A stretch of 64,000 bases of DNA. Source: Paenibacillus sp. DCT19 (GTDB lineage Bacteria > Bacillota > Bacilli > Paenibacillales > Paenibacillaceae). The stretch lies in assembly GCF_003268635.1 (NCBI RefSeq), contig NZ_CP029639.1:4289501-4353500 (forward strand), given 5' to 3'. Of this stretch, positions 21,411 through 35,760 are shown piece by piece. Position numbers and translations under genes: made by a program. Position 1 is the stretch's first letter, and every line of letters starts with the position of its first letter. The notes below the pieces were generated by a model. That model had not been told where the DNA came from, did no database searches, and saw nothing but the letters and a program-made list of their open reading frames with translations.

Positions 21411-21503
21411 GATAGTCCCTCCAACAATGATTTTGATTTTGTGTGATATTTGTTCTTTTTGTCTATCGTTATCTCTTTGGCATTTGCATAAATTCACAAC
21501 TAT

Positions 21504-22319
21504 TTAGTGCAGGCACCGCCGAATACGAGCATCCAGCTCTACAGGTGAGAACGGTTTGGTCATATAATCATCAACCCCGCTACGGAAGCATTGGCTGATC
21601 GTTTGCTCCACACGCTGCTCCGTCAGAACGACGATTTTGGGCGGCTGCTCTATCTCTAACTTCTGGATATGATGGATGAACGGCAAGCCGTCAATGCCAT
21701 ACAGGTTCAATTCAGTCAGTACCAGATCCGGTGTCACTTTCTCGATAAGCTCCAGTGCAGCCAGACCATCTACAGCTTCATACGTTTCGTAGCCTTGCAT
21801 CTTCAATCGCAATTGCAGAAACTCACGCACGGTTGGATCATTATCTACAATCAAAATACGTTCCGGATCTGTTGATGTCTTGTCCAGCGTATAGATATGA
21901 ATCTCAGATGAATCTACCAGCTTCGAGGATTCAGCCATATGCTGAATGGTCGCCTGCGAAGGACGATCCTTATCCGTGAAGCTAGCCAGTGTAATCTGTG
22001 GATCGGCACCAGGTACCGTTTCCTGCAGCTCATGCTTGATCCGAAGTCCTGCATAGTGAATCTCATCCAAGGTTAATCTCGGCAATAGAACCGCAATCGT
22101 CTGCGTAGCTCCATCCTTCCACAACTGAAAATCATAATCATGCGTCTGTTCCAAATGTGTTCGGATCTGCTGCTCTGGCTGAATATTCCCTGCACAGTGG
22201 ATGAACATTAAACCGCATGTTCCGGCACCCGTTTCCTTCAACCCTTGCTCTACACTTCGATACACATTGACCGCAGTCTCACGCTGCAATGTTGCCGTAT
22301 TTGGCATGTTCTTTTCCAC
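21504..22319 (-). CDS. Degenerate GGDEF-like domain fused to a pseudo-receiver domain
   Basis: A 271-residue cytoplasmic signalling protein. Residues about 15-135 have the strand/helix pattern of a GGDEF domain, but the signature position before AVLLP reads KDGATQTI (68-75), so cyclase activity is not expected. Residues 155-271 are a response-regulator receiver: ILIVDNDPTVREF supplies acidic D159/D161, T233 and K255 (MTKPF) are in place, but the phospho-acceptor position is Glu (LVLTELNLYGIDG, E203) instead of Asp. Glu there often mimics phosphorylation. There is no DNA-binding domain. The gene lies between the GT2 synthase and the sugar dehydrogenase, so it may switch polysaccharide synthesis by binding protein or nucleotide. 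An upstream GTG and an ATG at 22307 are both possible starts. Confidence 0.75.
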   Translation of the reverse strand: MEKNMPNTATLQRETAVNVYRSVEQGLKETGAGTCGLMFIHCAGNIQPEQQIRTHLEQTHDYDFQLWKDGATQTIAVLLPRLTLDEIHYAGLRIKHELQETVPGADPQITLASFTDKDRPSQATIQHMAESSKLVDSSEIHIYTLDKTSTDPERILIVDNDPTVREFLQLRLKMQGYETYEAVDGLAALELIEKVTPDLVLTELNLYGIDGLPFIHHIQKLEIEQPPKIVVLTEQRVEQTISQCFRSGVDDYMTKPFSPVELDARIRRCLH

Positions 22320-31755: not shown

Positions 31756-31783
31756 AAAAAAAAAGCGACCTTTTAGAGGTCGC
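31756..31783 (-). terminator. Terminator of the YhjX-like transporter gene
   Basis: GCGACCT (31765-31771) pairs with AGGTCGC (31777-31783), loop TTTAG; on the minus strand the stem is followed by nine T. It is 40 nt after the transporter stop codon. Confidence 0.9.
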
Positions 31784-31824
31784 TCAGGCTCATTACATAT
31801 TCCAATATATATGTCCGTTCTAGA

Positions 31825-33120
31825 TTAGCTTGCCCGGGATGAAGGATGAAGACTCAGCTTTCCTTCACGCTGACGTGTACGACGTTGTTGCCCCGGAGGT
31901 GTAATGATACATGCAAGCAACAAGGAGATCGTACAGAGAACGGCAATCACGATGAAGGTAAGATGGAACCCGCCCAGCAATGCGCTGATAAATGATCCGG
32001 CAAGTGCACCAAAACCAAACCCTTGATAAATGACACCATAGTTTTTGCTCTGATTTTTCAATCCAAAATAGTCGGCCACAATGGCTGGAAATACTGTGAT
32101 ATTCCCGCCAAAACAAAAAGCAATGGCTGCCACACAGGCGAAGAACACTCCAAAACTTAGCGGCACCAAACTCAGTGTCATCACGGCTACTGCCGTCACC
32201 AGCAACGCTCCAGCGATGACCTTCATCCGTCCTACTTTATCCGACAATGCACCTAGGATGATGCGGCCAGCCGTATTAAATATGGCAACCATAGCAACCG
32301 CGTTAGCAGCCGTGGCTACATTTAGACCCGCGAGCTGAACACCGATGTCTTTCACAATTCCGATAAGGTACAAACCACTCATACATGCCGTGAAGAAAAT
32401 AACAAATAACATGTAGGCTTCTTTTGTACGCAGCATCTCTTTGACCGTATAATCCTGGCGTACATTCGATGGTTGGTCTCCCTCTTTTTTGCCGGCTGCA
32501 GCTTGATTACGAACAACTGCTTCACGGATCAAGAACGAGCCTGCCACAATCAGAACGAGTACGATGATTCCCCAGTACATAAATGCCTGAGCAGGACCTA
32601 CCGAACTAATAAGTGCGGAATTCACATATTTGAACAGAAGACTGCCTGTACCAAAAGCTCCGACCGAAATACCTGAGATCAGACCTTTGCGCTCGGGAAA
32701 CCACTTAATCAGATTAGACAATGAAGTGATATAAGCAGTACCGTCTGCAAATCCAACCACAAATCCAGCCAGAAGATAGAGCAGTGTTAACGAAGTAACT
32801 TGAGAACTAAGAACAAGTCCAAGCCCAAGCAGAATTCCTGCAATACGGATCAGGCGCTGAAGACCCCATCGTTCCTGCAAACGTCCTGCAAACAATGTAG
32901 CAAATGCTAATGCAAAACTCGTTATTGAAAAAGTAATCGCAACAGAGCTAACATCCCATCCGAATCGATCGGAGAGCGGTTGGTTGAACAAGCTCCATGT
33001 GTAAATTGTACCTAGACCCATCTGTACAATAATAGTGCCAAGTACAATAAGCCAGCGATTAATGGATGTAGATTCAGTAGATGATGCCATATTAGGTGCT
33101 GATGAAATGTTTGCTTTCAT
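31825..33120 (-). CDS. OFA-family MFS transporter, YhjX-like
   Basis: A twelve-span major facilitator of 431 residues, oxalate/formate antiporter family. It closely recalls E. coli YhjX from end to end: LGTIIVQMGLGTIYTWSLFN in helix 1, GRLQERWGLQ in loop 2-3, LIKWFPERKGLISGISVGAF, FFTACMSGLYLIGIVKDIG, AGRIILGALSDKVGR and SKNYGVIYQGFGFGALAGS. YhjX is linked to pyruvate response in E. coli (family knowledge). Just upstream lies a LytTR-type direct repeat and the genes of a LytS/LytTR system in the same direction, pointing to induction by that system. It has its own strong terminator. Substrate suggestion (pyruvate, formate or related acid) is inference. Confidence 0.9.
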   Translation of the reverse strand: MKANISSAPNMASSTESTSINRWLIVLGTIIVQMGLGTIYTWSLFNQPLSDRFGWDVSSVAITFSITSFALAFATLFAGRLQERWGLQRLIRIAGILLGLGLVLSSQVTSLTLLYLLAGFVVGFADGTAYITSLSNLIKWFPERKGLISGISVGAFGTGSLLFKYVNSALISSVGPAQAFMYWGIIVLVLIVAGSFLIREAVVRNQAAAGKKEGDQPSNVRQDYTVKEMLRTKEAYMLFVIFFTACMSGLYLIGIVKDIGVQLAGLNVATAANAVAMVAIFNTAGRIILGALSDKVGRMKVIAGALLVTAVAVMTLSLVPLSFGVFFACVAAIAFCFGGNITVFPAIVADYFGLKNQSKNYGVIYQGFGFGALAGSFISALLGGFHLTFIVIAVLCTISLLLACIITPPGQQRRTRQREGKLSLHPSSRAS

Positions 33121-33208
33121 CGTGATCTCCCCTTTGCCGATGTCAGATGCATGAATGCGTTCACAAGCTAATCATACATGAAAGGGGATTCATTACACCG
33201 ATTTTGGC

Positions 33209-33239
33209 ATGAGTTGCATCAGAGCGGGAATGAAATGCC
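33209..33239 (-). promoter_or_regulatory. LytTR-type direct repeat upstream of the YhjX-like gene
   Basis: On the minus strand GGCATTTCAT (33239-33230), an 11-nt spacer, then TGCAACTCAT (33218-33209; 7 of 10 identical). From memory, E. coli YpdB binds two GGCATTTCAT repeats with an 11-bp spacer before yhjX. A likely -10, TATGAT, lies further downstream with a poor -35, as expected for an activated promoter. Confidence 0.65.
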
Positions 33240-33240
33240 T

Positions 33241-34068
33241 CTAAATGCGCATGAGCTGCCTGAACTCTTTTACCTTTCCACGACTTACAGGCACTTCTGC
33301 CTCCAGATCACGCAGGCGTAGCAGATACGTATTGTTAAACCAAGGCACAATTTCACGAATTTGGGCTAGATTCACCAAGTATGAACGGTGGCAGCGGAAG
33401 AAGGTTTCTTGTGGTAAACGTCCATGGAAATCCGTAATACTAACGGGCATCGTAAATTCACCATTTTTCGTGTACACCTTGGTTACCTTTTCCTGTGCTT
33501 CCGCATAATAAATATCCGTAGTATCCGTCACAATGATGTTGTCGTTCCGTAACAGGTTAATCCGCCTCACATCATGGCTGTTCGCTTCCTTCACCTGTTG
33601 CGTTCCAGATGCCGAGCTTGATACAGACGAATCGTCATGAACAAGAGCCGTATGCAGAATGGATCTATCGTTCATGCCACGTTCATGCTCACCCTGCTCC
33701 TGATCCCGGCGGAATGTCGATTCCAGCTTGTGCAGCATGGCTGCAATGCGTTTCTCGTCATACGGCTTCAATATATAGTCCAACGCTTCCAACTCAAATG
33801 CCTCTGCTGCATGTTCTTTGTACGCTGTCGTAAATACGATGTAAGGCTTACGGGCAAATTTTCCAATATGATGCGCCAGCGTCATACCGTCTAACGAAGG
33901 AATATTAATATCCAGAAAAATAACGTCAACTTCCTGCTCTTGCAGAAACTTCAGCACATCCAGTCCATCTTCAAGGCAAGCAACGACTTCAATCTGGCTG
34001 TGCTCCTGAATTAAATAATTCAATTCCTCACTCGCGAGGATCTCATCTTCAACAATAAGGGCTCTCAT
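33241..34068 (-). CDS. LytTR-family response regulator
   Basis: A 275-residue two-component regulator. Receiver domain at about 1-120: MRALIVEDE acidic residues, phospho-acceptor Asp in VIFLDINIPSLDG, Thr in VFTTAYKEHA and Lys in YILKPYD, all intact. A Ser-rich linker follows (about 125-170). The LytTR DNA-binding domain is at about 172-270: NIIVTDTTDIYYAEAQ, then FFRCHRSYLVNLAQIREIVP. It should be phosphorylated by the sensor kinase encoded directly upstream (15 nt gap) and bind paired direct repeats; such a repeat lies just after this gene, before the YhjX-like transporter gene. Confidence 0.92.
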   Translation of the reverse strand: MRALIVEDEILASEELNYLIQEHSQIEVVACLEDGLDVLKFLQEQEVDVIFLDINIPSLDGMTLAHHIGKFARKPYIVFTTAYKEHAAEAFELEALDYILKPYDEKRIAAMLHKLESTFRRDQEQGEHERGMNDRSILHTALVHDDSSVSSSASGTQQVKEANSHDVRRINLLRNDNIIVTDTTDIYYAEAQEKVTKVYTKNGEFTMPVSITDFHGRLPQETFFRCHRSYLVNLAQIREIVPWFNNTYLLRLRDLEAEVPVSRGKVKEFRQLMRI

Positions 34069-34083
34069 CGACCAATCACCTTG

Positions 34084-35760
34084 TTATGCATCTCCTTTGG
34101 GCACATCAAATAAAATATCTGTTCCTTGTTCCAGCCGAGTAATGGTTAAGCCTTGTCCATAAATAAGCTTCACACGGCGGTGTACGTTATATAATCCGAT
34201 CTGATTCCCGGGCATTCGATCATGGTACACCTTCTCAATAATATCTGGACGGATACCTGCCCCTGTATCGCTGACACCCACTCGCACAAAATCAGGATAA
34301 TCCTGTACTCGAATACGAACCGTCCCCGGGCCTTTCCCTTTAAGAATGCCGTGGATAATGGCATTTTCAACAAGCGGCTGAATCACCAGACTTGGAATAT
34401 GCACAGCGACCTCATCAATCTCATAGATCACTTGCAGCCTACTACCGAAGCGGGCCTTTTCGATTTCCACATAATTACGAACCTGCTCTAGTTCCTTATG
34501 AATATCGATCAGTTCGTCTGACAGCTCCAGATTATAGCGCATATATCCTGACAAATTCACAATTAACTCTCTTGCTCGATCAGGCTTGGTACGAATGGAG
34601 GAGGCAATAGCATTTAACGCATTAAACAGAAAATGAGGATGGATGGTCGTCTGCAGAGCTCTAAGCTCTGCTTTGTTCGCAGCAGCCTTAATCTCCTCAA
34701 CACGGGATACCTCCATCTGCGTGGAAATAATCTGTGATAGCCCTACCGCCATCGTTTGCAAAGGATACGTAATCTTGTACGCTTTTCGATAATAAATTTT
34801 GAGCGCACCTGTCACTTCGCCCCGCTCTTCTAGCGGAATAATGAGCAGGGAGTGAATATCTGGCGTTTTCTCATCGATCACATCATTACTAATGGTAATC
34901 TCACCGCTGGAGATCGTTTTCTTCGTCATCTCACTAATAATCTCATTTCCGATATGATACCGTTCTTCACCAAATCCCACATAAGCGAGTACATTTCGTG
35001 TATCGGTAATGGCTACTGCATCTGCCTGGATATCCTCCTGAATAATTCGGCAGATGGTACGAAGAGAATCTTCGTCAATGGAACGGAAATACGGCAGCGT
35101 TTTGTTGGCAATATCTAATGCGAGCTTCGCCTGACGAGCTGCGATCATTTCTTTTTCCCCTTCAACACTCTGCACCAGAAGCACAATCAACCCGATATTC
35201 ATCTCACCTAAAATCATCGGCAGTGCAATCTGAGAAACGATATCTGCCCCCAGTGGGTCTGGATAGGAGTACAACAAAATAAGTAACATCGTAAGTGCTT
35301 CACAGATCATTCCAGCGGCGATCCCGATAATCCAGCGTTTGGACTTAGGGGTGTACTTGTGAATGTAACCAGATACGAGACCTGCGATAATACTTGTGAT
35401 GAGACAAGGAACAGCCGTTACTCCGTCCATATCAATCAAATAACGGTGTACTCCAGATACAATCCCCGTAATGATCCCCACAGGTGCGCCAAACAAAATA
35501 CCACCAGATAACACAGCGATGATTCGTACATTGACAAGAGAACCCTCTACATTAATTCCCGTATATGTCCCGAAGATAGCAAAAGCACAGAACAGTAGTG
35601 TAACTGCTACATATTCCTGCCACCTTAATTTGCCCTTCTGCAGGATCTGCCTAAACCGGGGAACTCTGGACAAAAAGAATAAAAAGATAATTAACAATGC
35701 CGCCCGTTCAAACAAACCAAGCAACATAATAAACATTTCAGACAATCGAACTTCCTCCAT
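34084..35760 (-). CDS. LytS-family sensor histidine kinase
   Basis: A 558-residue membrane kinase. Residues about 10-200 hold the 5TMR-LYT sensor module with about six spans ([39 protein letters not shown]). A GAF-like domain follows at about 220-350. The phospho-acceptor His is in [17 protein letters not shown] at about 375, the hallmark of LytS/YpdA kinases. The ATPase domain has [13 protein letters not shown] (N box), GVSDTGAGI (G1) and [11 protein letters not shown]. It would sense a small metabolite or membrane state and phosphorylate the LytTR regulator encoded next. Relatives BtsS and YpdA in E. coli respond to pyruvate. Confidence 0.92.

Follow-up and report, generated by a model that had tools for sequence, protein, structure and literature searches.

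The window analysed, i.e., 64,000 nucleotides of Paenibacillus sp. DCT19 (NCBI RefSeq assembly GCF_003268635.1, contig NZ_CP029639.1, positions 4,289,501 to 4,353,500 of the forward strand), carries on its minus strand a row of three genes. In transcription order these encode a kinase of the LytS type, a regulator with LytTR domain and a YhjX-like transporter of the major facilitator superfamily (MFS). Kinase and regulator are 15 base pairs (bp) apart; the gap between regulator and transporter is 120 bp. The features are the following, in positions of the window.

34084..35760, minus strand: sensor kinase, YpdA/PyrS orthologue, 558 amino acids (Pfam 5TMR-LYT, weak GAF, His_kinase and HATPase_c; identity to YpdA)
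33241..34068, minus strand: response regulator, YpdB/PyrR orthologue, receiver plus LytTR, 275 amino acids (Pfam; 55% identity to YpdB)
33251..33260, minus strand: proposed half-site A0, GGCAGCTCAT, in the codons AGG CAG CTC ATG (Arg-Gln-Leu-Met) close to the regulator C-terminus (21-bp phase; frozen codons)
33230..33239, minus strand: half-site A, GGCATTTCAT, followed by TCC, one base past the regulator stop (identical to E. coli site A)
33209..33218, minus strand: half-site B, TGCAACTCAT (same form at a Serratia plasmid locus, TGCAACTCATTCC)
33171..33176, minus strand: predicted −10 box TATGAT, beginning 33 bp after site B (best −10-like hexamer; no −35 consensus)
31825..33120, minus strand: YhjX-like transporter of the OFA/MCT family of the MFS, 431 amino acids (47% identity to YhjX; NCBIfam SfMCT; PDB relatives)

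Pfam domains and coordinates agree with an earlier note on this DNA (the initial annotation), which had described a kinase of the LytS/YpdA layout, a LytTR regulator and a transporter.

The locus is read as the YpdA-YpdB-YhjX (PyrS-PyrR-YhjX) circuit gathered in one Paenibacillus locus, with a probability of about 0.87; in this circuit pyruvate would be the signal, and phosphorylation, DNA binding, activation, the transporter substrate and the occupation of A0 are predicted. The reading is carried by the gene order, the orthology, the operator and its conservation, its 21-bp phase and its fixed distance to the promoter, which are direct observations. Judged from sequence, this is a known E. 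coli circuit in a new phylum. No prior report of a YpdAB circuit or of a YpdB site in Paenibacillus or Firmicutes was found in the open-licence literature.

Aligned over 552 residues, the kinase and E. coli YpdA share 61% identity. The regulator shares 55% with YpdB over its full length, the C-terminal LytTR end being strongly alike, and the transporter 47% with YhjX, in agreement with its initial description as YhjX-like. In the same search the E. coli paralogues BtsS and BtsR are at 30% to kinase and regulator, respectively, and two housekeeping proteins taken as cross-phylum yardsticks, RecG and Gmk, are at 39% and 46%. It is notable that the kinase is nearer across phyla than these two proteins, which are the whole yardstick set. 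A tree of 60 kinases places 41 YpdA-type rows in one clade (support 100/100), apart from the LytS and BtsS rows, the next row outside being a Bacillota kinase (L167). The window kinase groups with YpdA (support 100/100), i.e., it belongs to the YpdA branch and not to that of BtsS or LytS. By these comparisons, the three proteins are orthologues of YpdA, YpdB and YhjX.

The gap between regulator and transporter opens, one base past the stop codon, with GGCATTTCATTCCCGCTCTGATGCAACTCAT (33209-33239), i.e., GGCATTTCAT-N11-TGCAACTCAT on the minus strand. This arrangement is present as a single copy in the window and in none of 100 shuffles. E. coli MG1655 has GGCATTTCATTCCGTTCTGATGGCATTTCAT before yhjX, i.e., GGCATTTCAT-N11-GGCATTTCAT. 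Site A is thus identical, site B agrees at 7/10 positions and the spacing is equal (17/20 half-site bases), so that the paired repeat named in the initial annotation for E. coli YpdB at yhjX is indeed found; several relatives reach 19/20 half-site bases against the E. coli direct repeat. The half-site is longer than first noted, with the extended form NGCATTTCATTCC. A motif of the GGCATTTCAT type is bound by E. coli YpdB in vitro (PMC4847170, available text). When up to three mismatches are allowed, the own genome has the pattern twice, without mismatch at the window site and with three mismatches at a second position. This scarcity of further operators fits a one-target regulator, as YpdB is described in the same text (PMC4847170).

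Within the genus, the kinase is found in 73/75 genomes and the transporter in 72/75. The two genomes without kinase (G042, G074) are also without transporter, and in a third (G018) the transporter gene runs into a contig end (L062). A regulator search at E ≤ 1e-60 had left 22/75 genus genomes apparently without the system; this absence was rejected as a threshold effect, since the kinase is found in 73/75. In the family sample the kinase occurs in 67/197 genomes, 23 of them from the genus. Kinase matches of at least 60% outside the family are limited, in the class sample (398), to three genomes (G514, G368, G388), and the other matches at 1e-100 in the phylum sample (398) are at 35-40%, with one at 46%.

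In each of the first 53 genus loci the three genes share a strand, and there is one match to NGCANTTCATTCC-N9-GCANNTCAT, with A and B in 53/53. Among 19 further genus loci, 16 score at least 19 of 22. Scanning before the orthologous transporter genes thus shows that the repeat is kept in relatives, A and B both being retained in 69/73 genus loci. The family loci score at least 16 of 22 in 43/44 cases; in the remaining one (L155) the regulator frame is interrupted and a 15/20 site is present. In a subgroup (L058-L063) the form is GCATTTCATTCC...GCATTTCAT, as in E. coli, L063 departing from it by one letter. Over the Bacilli loci, the offset of one base between regulator stop and site A is the same in 87/101.

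Because the kinase is in 73/75 genus genomes, the genus offers no control of the type «transporter without regulator», and this control was drawn from the class. Five YhjX-like transporters of Bacilli without adjacent YpdAB (65, 64, 43, 40 and 40% identity) were considered, and the operator is absent before 5/5, none exceeding 13/22. Four of these five genomes are without kinase match at 1e-100; the fifth has a 39% LytS on another contig.

The pattern GCATTTCATTCC-N10-CATTTCAT (20 fixed bases) was then run over a collection of genome contigs. It should be noted that it excludes site B of the window and thus favours E. coli-like operators. Among the 88 loci obtained, 85 lie upstream of a YhjX homologue on the same strand: 69 in Enterobacterales, 13 in Paenibacillus and 3 in Chromobacterium. 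Twelve of the 13 Paenibacillus loci are not independent, their genomes being already counted among the genus and family loci. The three off-target loci (Kaistella, a Eubacterium and a Syntrophobacteraceae metagenome-assembled genome) have no YhjX within the 7.6-8 kb examined, and YpdA is found at 1e-60 in 0/3 of these genomes; among the proteobacterial genomes with the operator, it is present in 14/14 of those searched (11 from the 69 Enterobacterales, 3/3 Chromobacterium). Chromobacterium, a genus of betaproteobacteria, has the regulator upstream of this operator; no ypdB was found within the Enterobacterales operator loci. The proposal that the operator is kept across phyla is thus upheld: it recurs in the genus, the family and Proteobacteria at a YhjX-like gene, and is absent at the five transporters without YpdAB. 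A resemblance between the B. subtilis LytT and YpdB sites had, however, already been published in 2017 (PMC5626966, available text).

The order kinase-regulator-transporter is shared with gamma-proteobacterial loci, i.e., Yersinia and Aeromonas, for which target genes adjoining YpdAB were tabulated earlier (PMC5552118, available part), and Serratia, Plesiomonas, Aeromonas caviae and Salinivibrio here. In Plesiomonas and Aeromonas caviae site A lies one base behind the regulator stop, as in Paenibacillus. Apart from the phylum, the differences are a reverse-strand gene in between in Serratia and a phase that reads as 20 bp in Salinivibrio. On the Serratia proteamaculans plasmid (L344) a DUF2502 gene on the reverse strand separates kinase and regulator from the transporter, and the half-sites GGCAACTCAT / TGCATTTCATTCC / TGCAACTCATTCC are near the A0-A-B of the window. 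Salinivibrio proteolyticus (L347) fails the 21-bp scan, and three half-sites before its transporter read as a 20-bp phase. A summed tally over these bridge loci mixes true sites with background and was not used. According to the part of PMC5552118 available, no motifs were found in 2017 in A. hydrophila and S. marcescens; variant half-sites as in their congeners A. caviae and S. proteamaculans may be the reason.

The −10 box, which the initial annotation does not mention, lies at a nearly constant distance from the operator in both phyla. The best −10-like hexamer lies at +33/+34 after B in 92.0/101 Bacilli loci (shuffles: mean 5.7, largest 12.4) and in 57.0/62 Enterobacterales (shuffles: mean 3.7, largest 9.2), ties among best hexamers being shared in these tallies. 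Restriction to distinct sequences gives 62.0/71 and 52.0/56, respectively. All three Chromobacterium loci have TATAGT at 34 after B. The consensus scan, which is uninformative overall (9 promoters found vs. 8.9 expected), gives neither a −35 consensus nor a −35/−10 pair on the minus strand at the transporter promoter. An activator binding next to the −35 region would require such a fixed operator-to-−10 distance without −35 consensus.

The candidate A0, which the initial annotation did not contain, lies exactly 21 bp upstream of site A, inside the regulator gene of the window. In Enterobacterales the pattern.G.[CT].TTCAT.CC stands exactly 21 bp before A in 68/69 promoters (62/62 plus 6/7 further), the sole exception, Mangrovibacter plantisponsor, being one letter off. 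These promoters were selected by A and B alone; the pattern itself was written after inspection of their per-position information. Over 58 distinct Enterobacterales promoters, the information per position is 1.1 to 2.0 bits from −20 to −9, and well under 1 bit in the spacer (−8 to −2) as well as further upstream than −21. The second line of evidence is the codon usage of the regulator gene, in whose last codons the site falls in the clade of the window. Among 47 regulators, the 42 conserved six-fold codon columns show synonymous change in all but two, and these two are the Arg AGG and the Leu CTC of A0. The odds for exactly this pair, 1 in 861, are a guide and not a probability, since the sequences are related. 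Of the genus and family regulators, 93/95 use AGG or CGG for this Arg, and the Leu/Ile codon is loose. Finally, one locus (L290, G009) has a further 21-bp unit (GTTATTTCATTCC duplicated), i.e., four phased half-sites, and its relatives L294 and L301 have three.

The E. coli fragment used for surface plasmon resonance (SPR), said to resemble all DNase I-protected nucleotides, starts with CGCGTCATTCATTCC after the clamp (PMC4847170, available text). It spans the A0 element, and A and B alone are named in that text (PMC4847170). The operator is probably three-part, with A0 as third half-site, and A0 is the more novel part compared with the circuit itself.

It is also conceivable, but rather unlikely, that A0 is not a binding site, its codons being kept for reasons of protein or mRNA and the −21 element of E. 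coli belonging to another factor. The RQLM residues are indeed conserved in the regulator protein itself. A0 is looser across the family (e.g., GGCAGTTGAT, GGCAAATTAT) and unclear in 2/3 Chromobacterium loci. A subgroup with the operator 30-43 bp past the stop codon keeps a weak TTC/CTC core at −21, and has also G-ending Arg codons at the regulator end. Moreover, the change of A abolished YpdB binding in vitro with A0 and B intact (PMC4847170, available text), whence A is the anchor. Against this reading, A0 stands in 68/69 Enterobacterales promoters, with no ypdB found in the locus; in E. coli it falls in the yhjY-yhjX gap. The phase with A is exact, and the two frozen codons flank a Gln codon which flips between CAG (25/47) and CAA (22/47). 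A0 as a third half-site is thus retained as the probable reading.

Several points weigh against the locus being the YpdAB-YhjX circuit with its operator and pyruvate logic. Site B departs from E. coli at 3/10 positions and is degenerate in 4/73 genus loci (L153, L299, L300, L304), A0 and A being kept there. Three further Bacilli families have a weaker or partly missing operator: 16/22 in L166, a single half-site in L164, and in L165 (G368), where the order is transporter-kinase-regulator, a weak 15/20 operator before the transporter. As for the transporter, NCBIfam labels it an L-lactate carrier, a label which also covers YhjX. It is below the cut-off of TIGR00890, the oxalate/formate subfamily (321.6 vs. 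374.85), a model that YhjX passes (478.5); the Aeromonas and Serratia transporters are likewise under this cut-off. The proton-site His250 of SfMCT is not conserved. The YhjX substrate itself is called elusive (PMC7730263, PMC9765748, available parts).

The same genes and operator logic could serve L-lactate or another monocarboxylate (e.g., formate), and not pyruvate, as signal and cargo. The transporter scores 415.9 with the NCBIfam model SfMCT «L-lactate MFS transporter» (cut-off 320), and among solved structures 6g9x, an L-lactate transporter, is nearest to it, the oxalate:formate antiporter 8hpj being another PDB relative; SfMCT does not transport pyruvate according to the available text of PMC6573034. 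On the other hand, E. coli YhjX also exceeds the cut-off of this model (342.1), so the label fails to separate the two cases. Of the SfMCT residues, N276, R280 and Y119 are retained in the aligned transporter and the His250 mentioned above is not, hence a monocarboxylate is the likely substrate, lactate and pyruvate being indistinguishable on this basis. In the kinase, three of the four BtsS residues are matched, i.e., R72, R99 and C110, described as needed for pyruvate sensing (PMC10653868, available text), and the fourth, S113, is T exactly as in YpdA. The kinase residues are thus compatible with pyruvate as signal, and a lactate or formate circuit is considered unlikely.

With E. coli YpdA/YpdB (PyrS/PyrR)-yhjX the window shares the orthologous kinase, regulator and transporter, site A, the 21-bp phase and a near-equal −10 distance. 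It differs by the transporter, distant in E. coli and directly behind the regulator in this Gram-positive locus, by site B (TGCAACTCAT) and by the position of A0 inside the regulator gene. E. coli BtsS/BtsR-btsT is also a LytS/LytTR system of the pyruvate type and shares pyruvate-binding residues with the window, but the identity is only 30% and its transporter is of the CstA type. B. subtilis LytST-pftAB, as described in the available part of PMC5626966, is a pyruvate-induced LytS/LytTR system adjoining transporter genes; this likeness is taken from the published description. Its transporter is PftAB, whereas the gene adjacent in the window encodes an MFS carrier and not a PftAB/LrgAB-type neighbour.

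The LytT boxes of B. subtilis, two of 13 nt separated by 8 nt, are called similar to YpdB sites (PMC5626966, available text). Among 24 more distant Bacillota LytS loci, a 21-bp repeat of a similar half-site lies behind the regulator in L126 and L135, unreached in 100 shuffles, and a similar repeat in L134 has p 0.05. These three cases suggest an older shared LytTR code. It is nevertheless very improbable that the shared 31 bp are a generic LytTR code of many LytS systems instead of a mark of YpdAB-YhjX, since nothing clear is found at the other 21/24 loci and the strict pattern lies upstream of YhjX homologues in 85/88. LytT probably shares the operator code in part, but sharing does not explain the full likeness.

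The initial suggestion of a compact YpdAB-YhjX-type locus in a Gram-positive lineage is thus in agreement with the orthology (61/55/47%), the operator and the recurrence through genus and family. In the proposed mechanism, the membrane part of the kinase would sense external pyruvate and the kinase would phosphorylate the LytTR regulator, as in its family. The regulator would then bind direct half-sites of consensus NGCATTTCATTCC every 21 bp, i.e., A0 within the last codons of the regulator gene, A and B. From a position beside the −35 region, at a promoter with a −10 box only, it would activate the YhjX-like monocarboxylate transporter.

The proteobacterial kinases form one clade in the 60-kinase tree. 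In a tree of 39 rows, Bacilli and Proteobacteria are split in 97% of the bootstrap trees, the three outgroup rows not being counted, and the Bacilli kinases as one clade are not rejected (approximately unbiased test, p-AU 0.363). The preferred reading is one or more transfers between Bacilli and Proteobacteria, in either direction. It appears somewhat probable that YpdB-type regulators use a phased array of at least three sites, beyond the two-site «AB-BA» model, and that the compact cassette, with its first site in the last codons of the regulator, was passed as a portable unit between Bacilli and Proteobacteria; in Enterobacterales the transporter would later have become separated, the array being retained. 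The locus places a pyruvate switch well studied in E. coli, together with its DNA control site, in a Gram-positive phylum, where it is one short locus. For E. coli itself, the prediction is a third YpdB half-site that lies at −21 exactly relative to site A and within the published footprint fragment.

Kinase, regulator and transporter stand together on two plasmid records, that of Serratia proteamaculans (L344) and one of Plesiomonas shigelloides (L346). A search of plasmids with the operator DNA gave no match; with the kinase, 64 records were obtained, some of them chromosome-sized.

A site for CcpA (cre) in the spacer that separates B from the −10 box seemed likely in several lineages, but is not claimed. 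The cre-like sequence at 33179-33192 (TGAATCCCCTTTCA, 9/11, without the central CG) has similar counterparts in several family lineages between B and −10, with an uneven distribution across relatives (66 distinct spacers scored plus two typed pieces).

Behind the transporter one further feature is present:

31763..31785, minus strand: terminator-like hairpin, 9 pairs plus T-run, 3' of the transporter (hairpin scan; overall near chance level, 5 found vs. 3.6)

Elsewhere in the window (about 21495-21854, minus strand), the own-genome search gave a receiver-domain match with one internal TAA, possibly a decayed response regulator.

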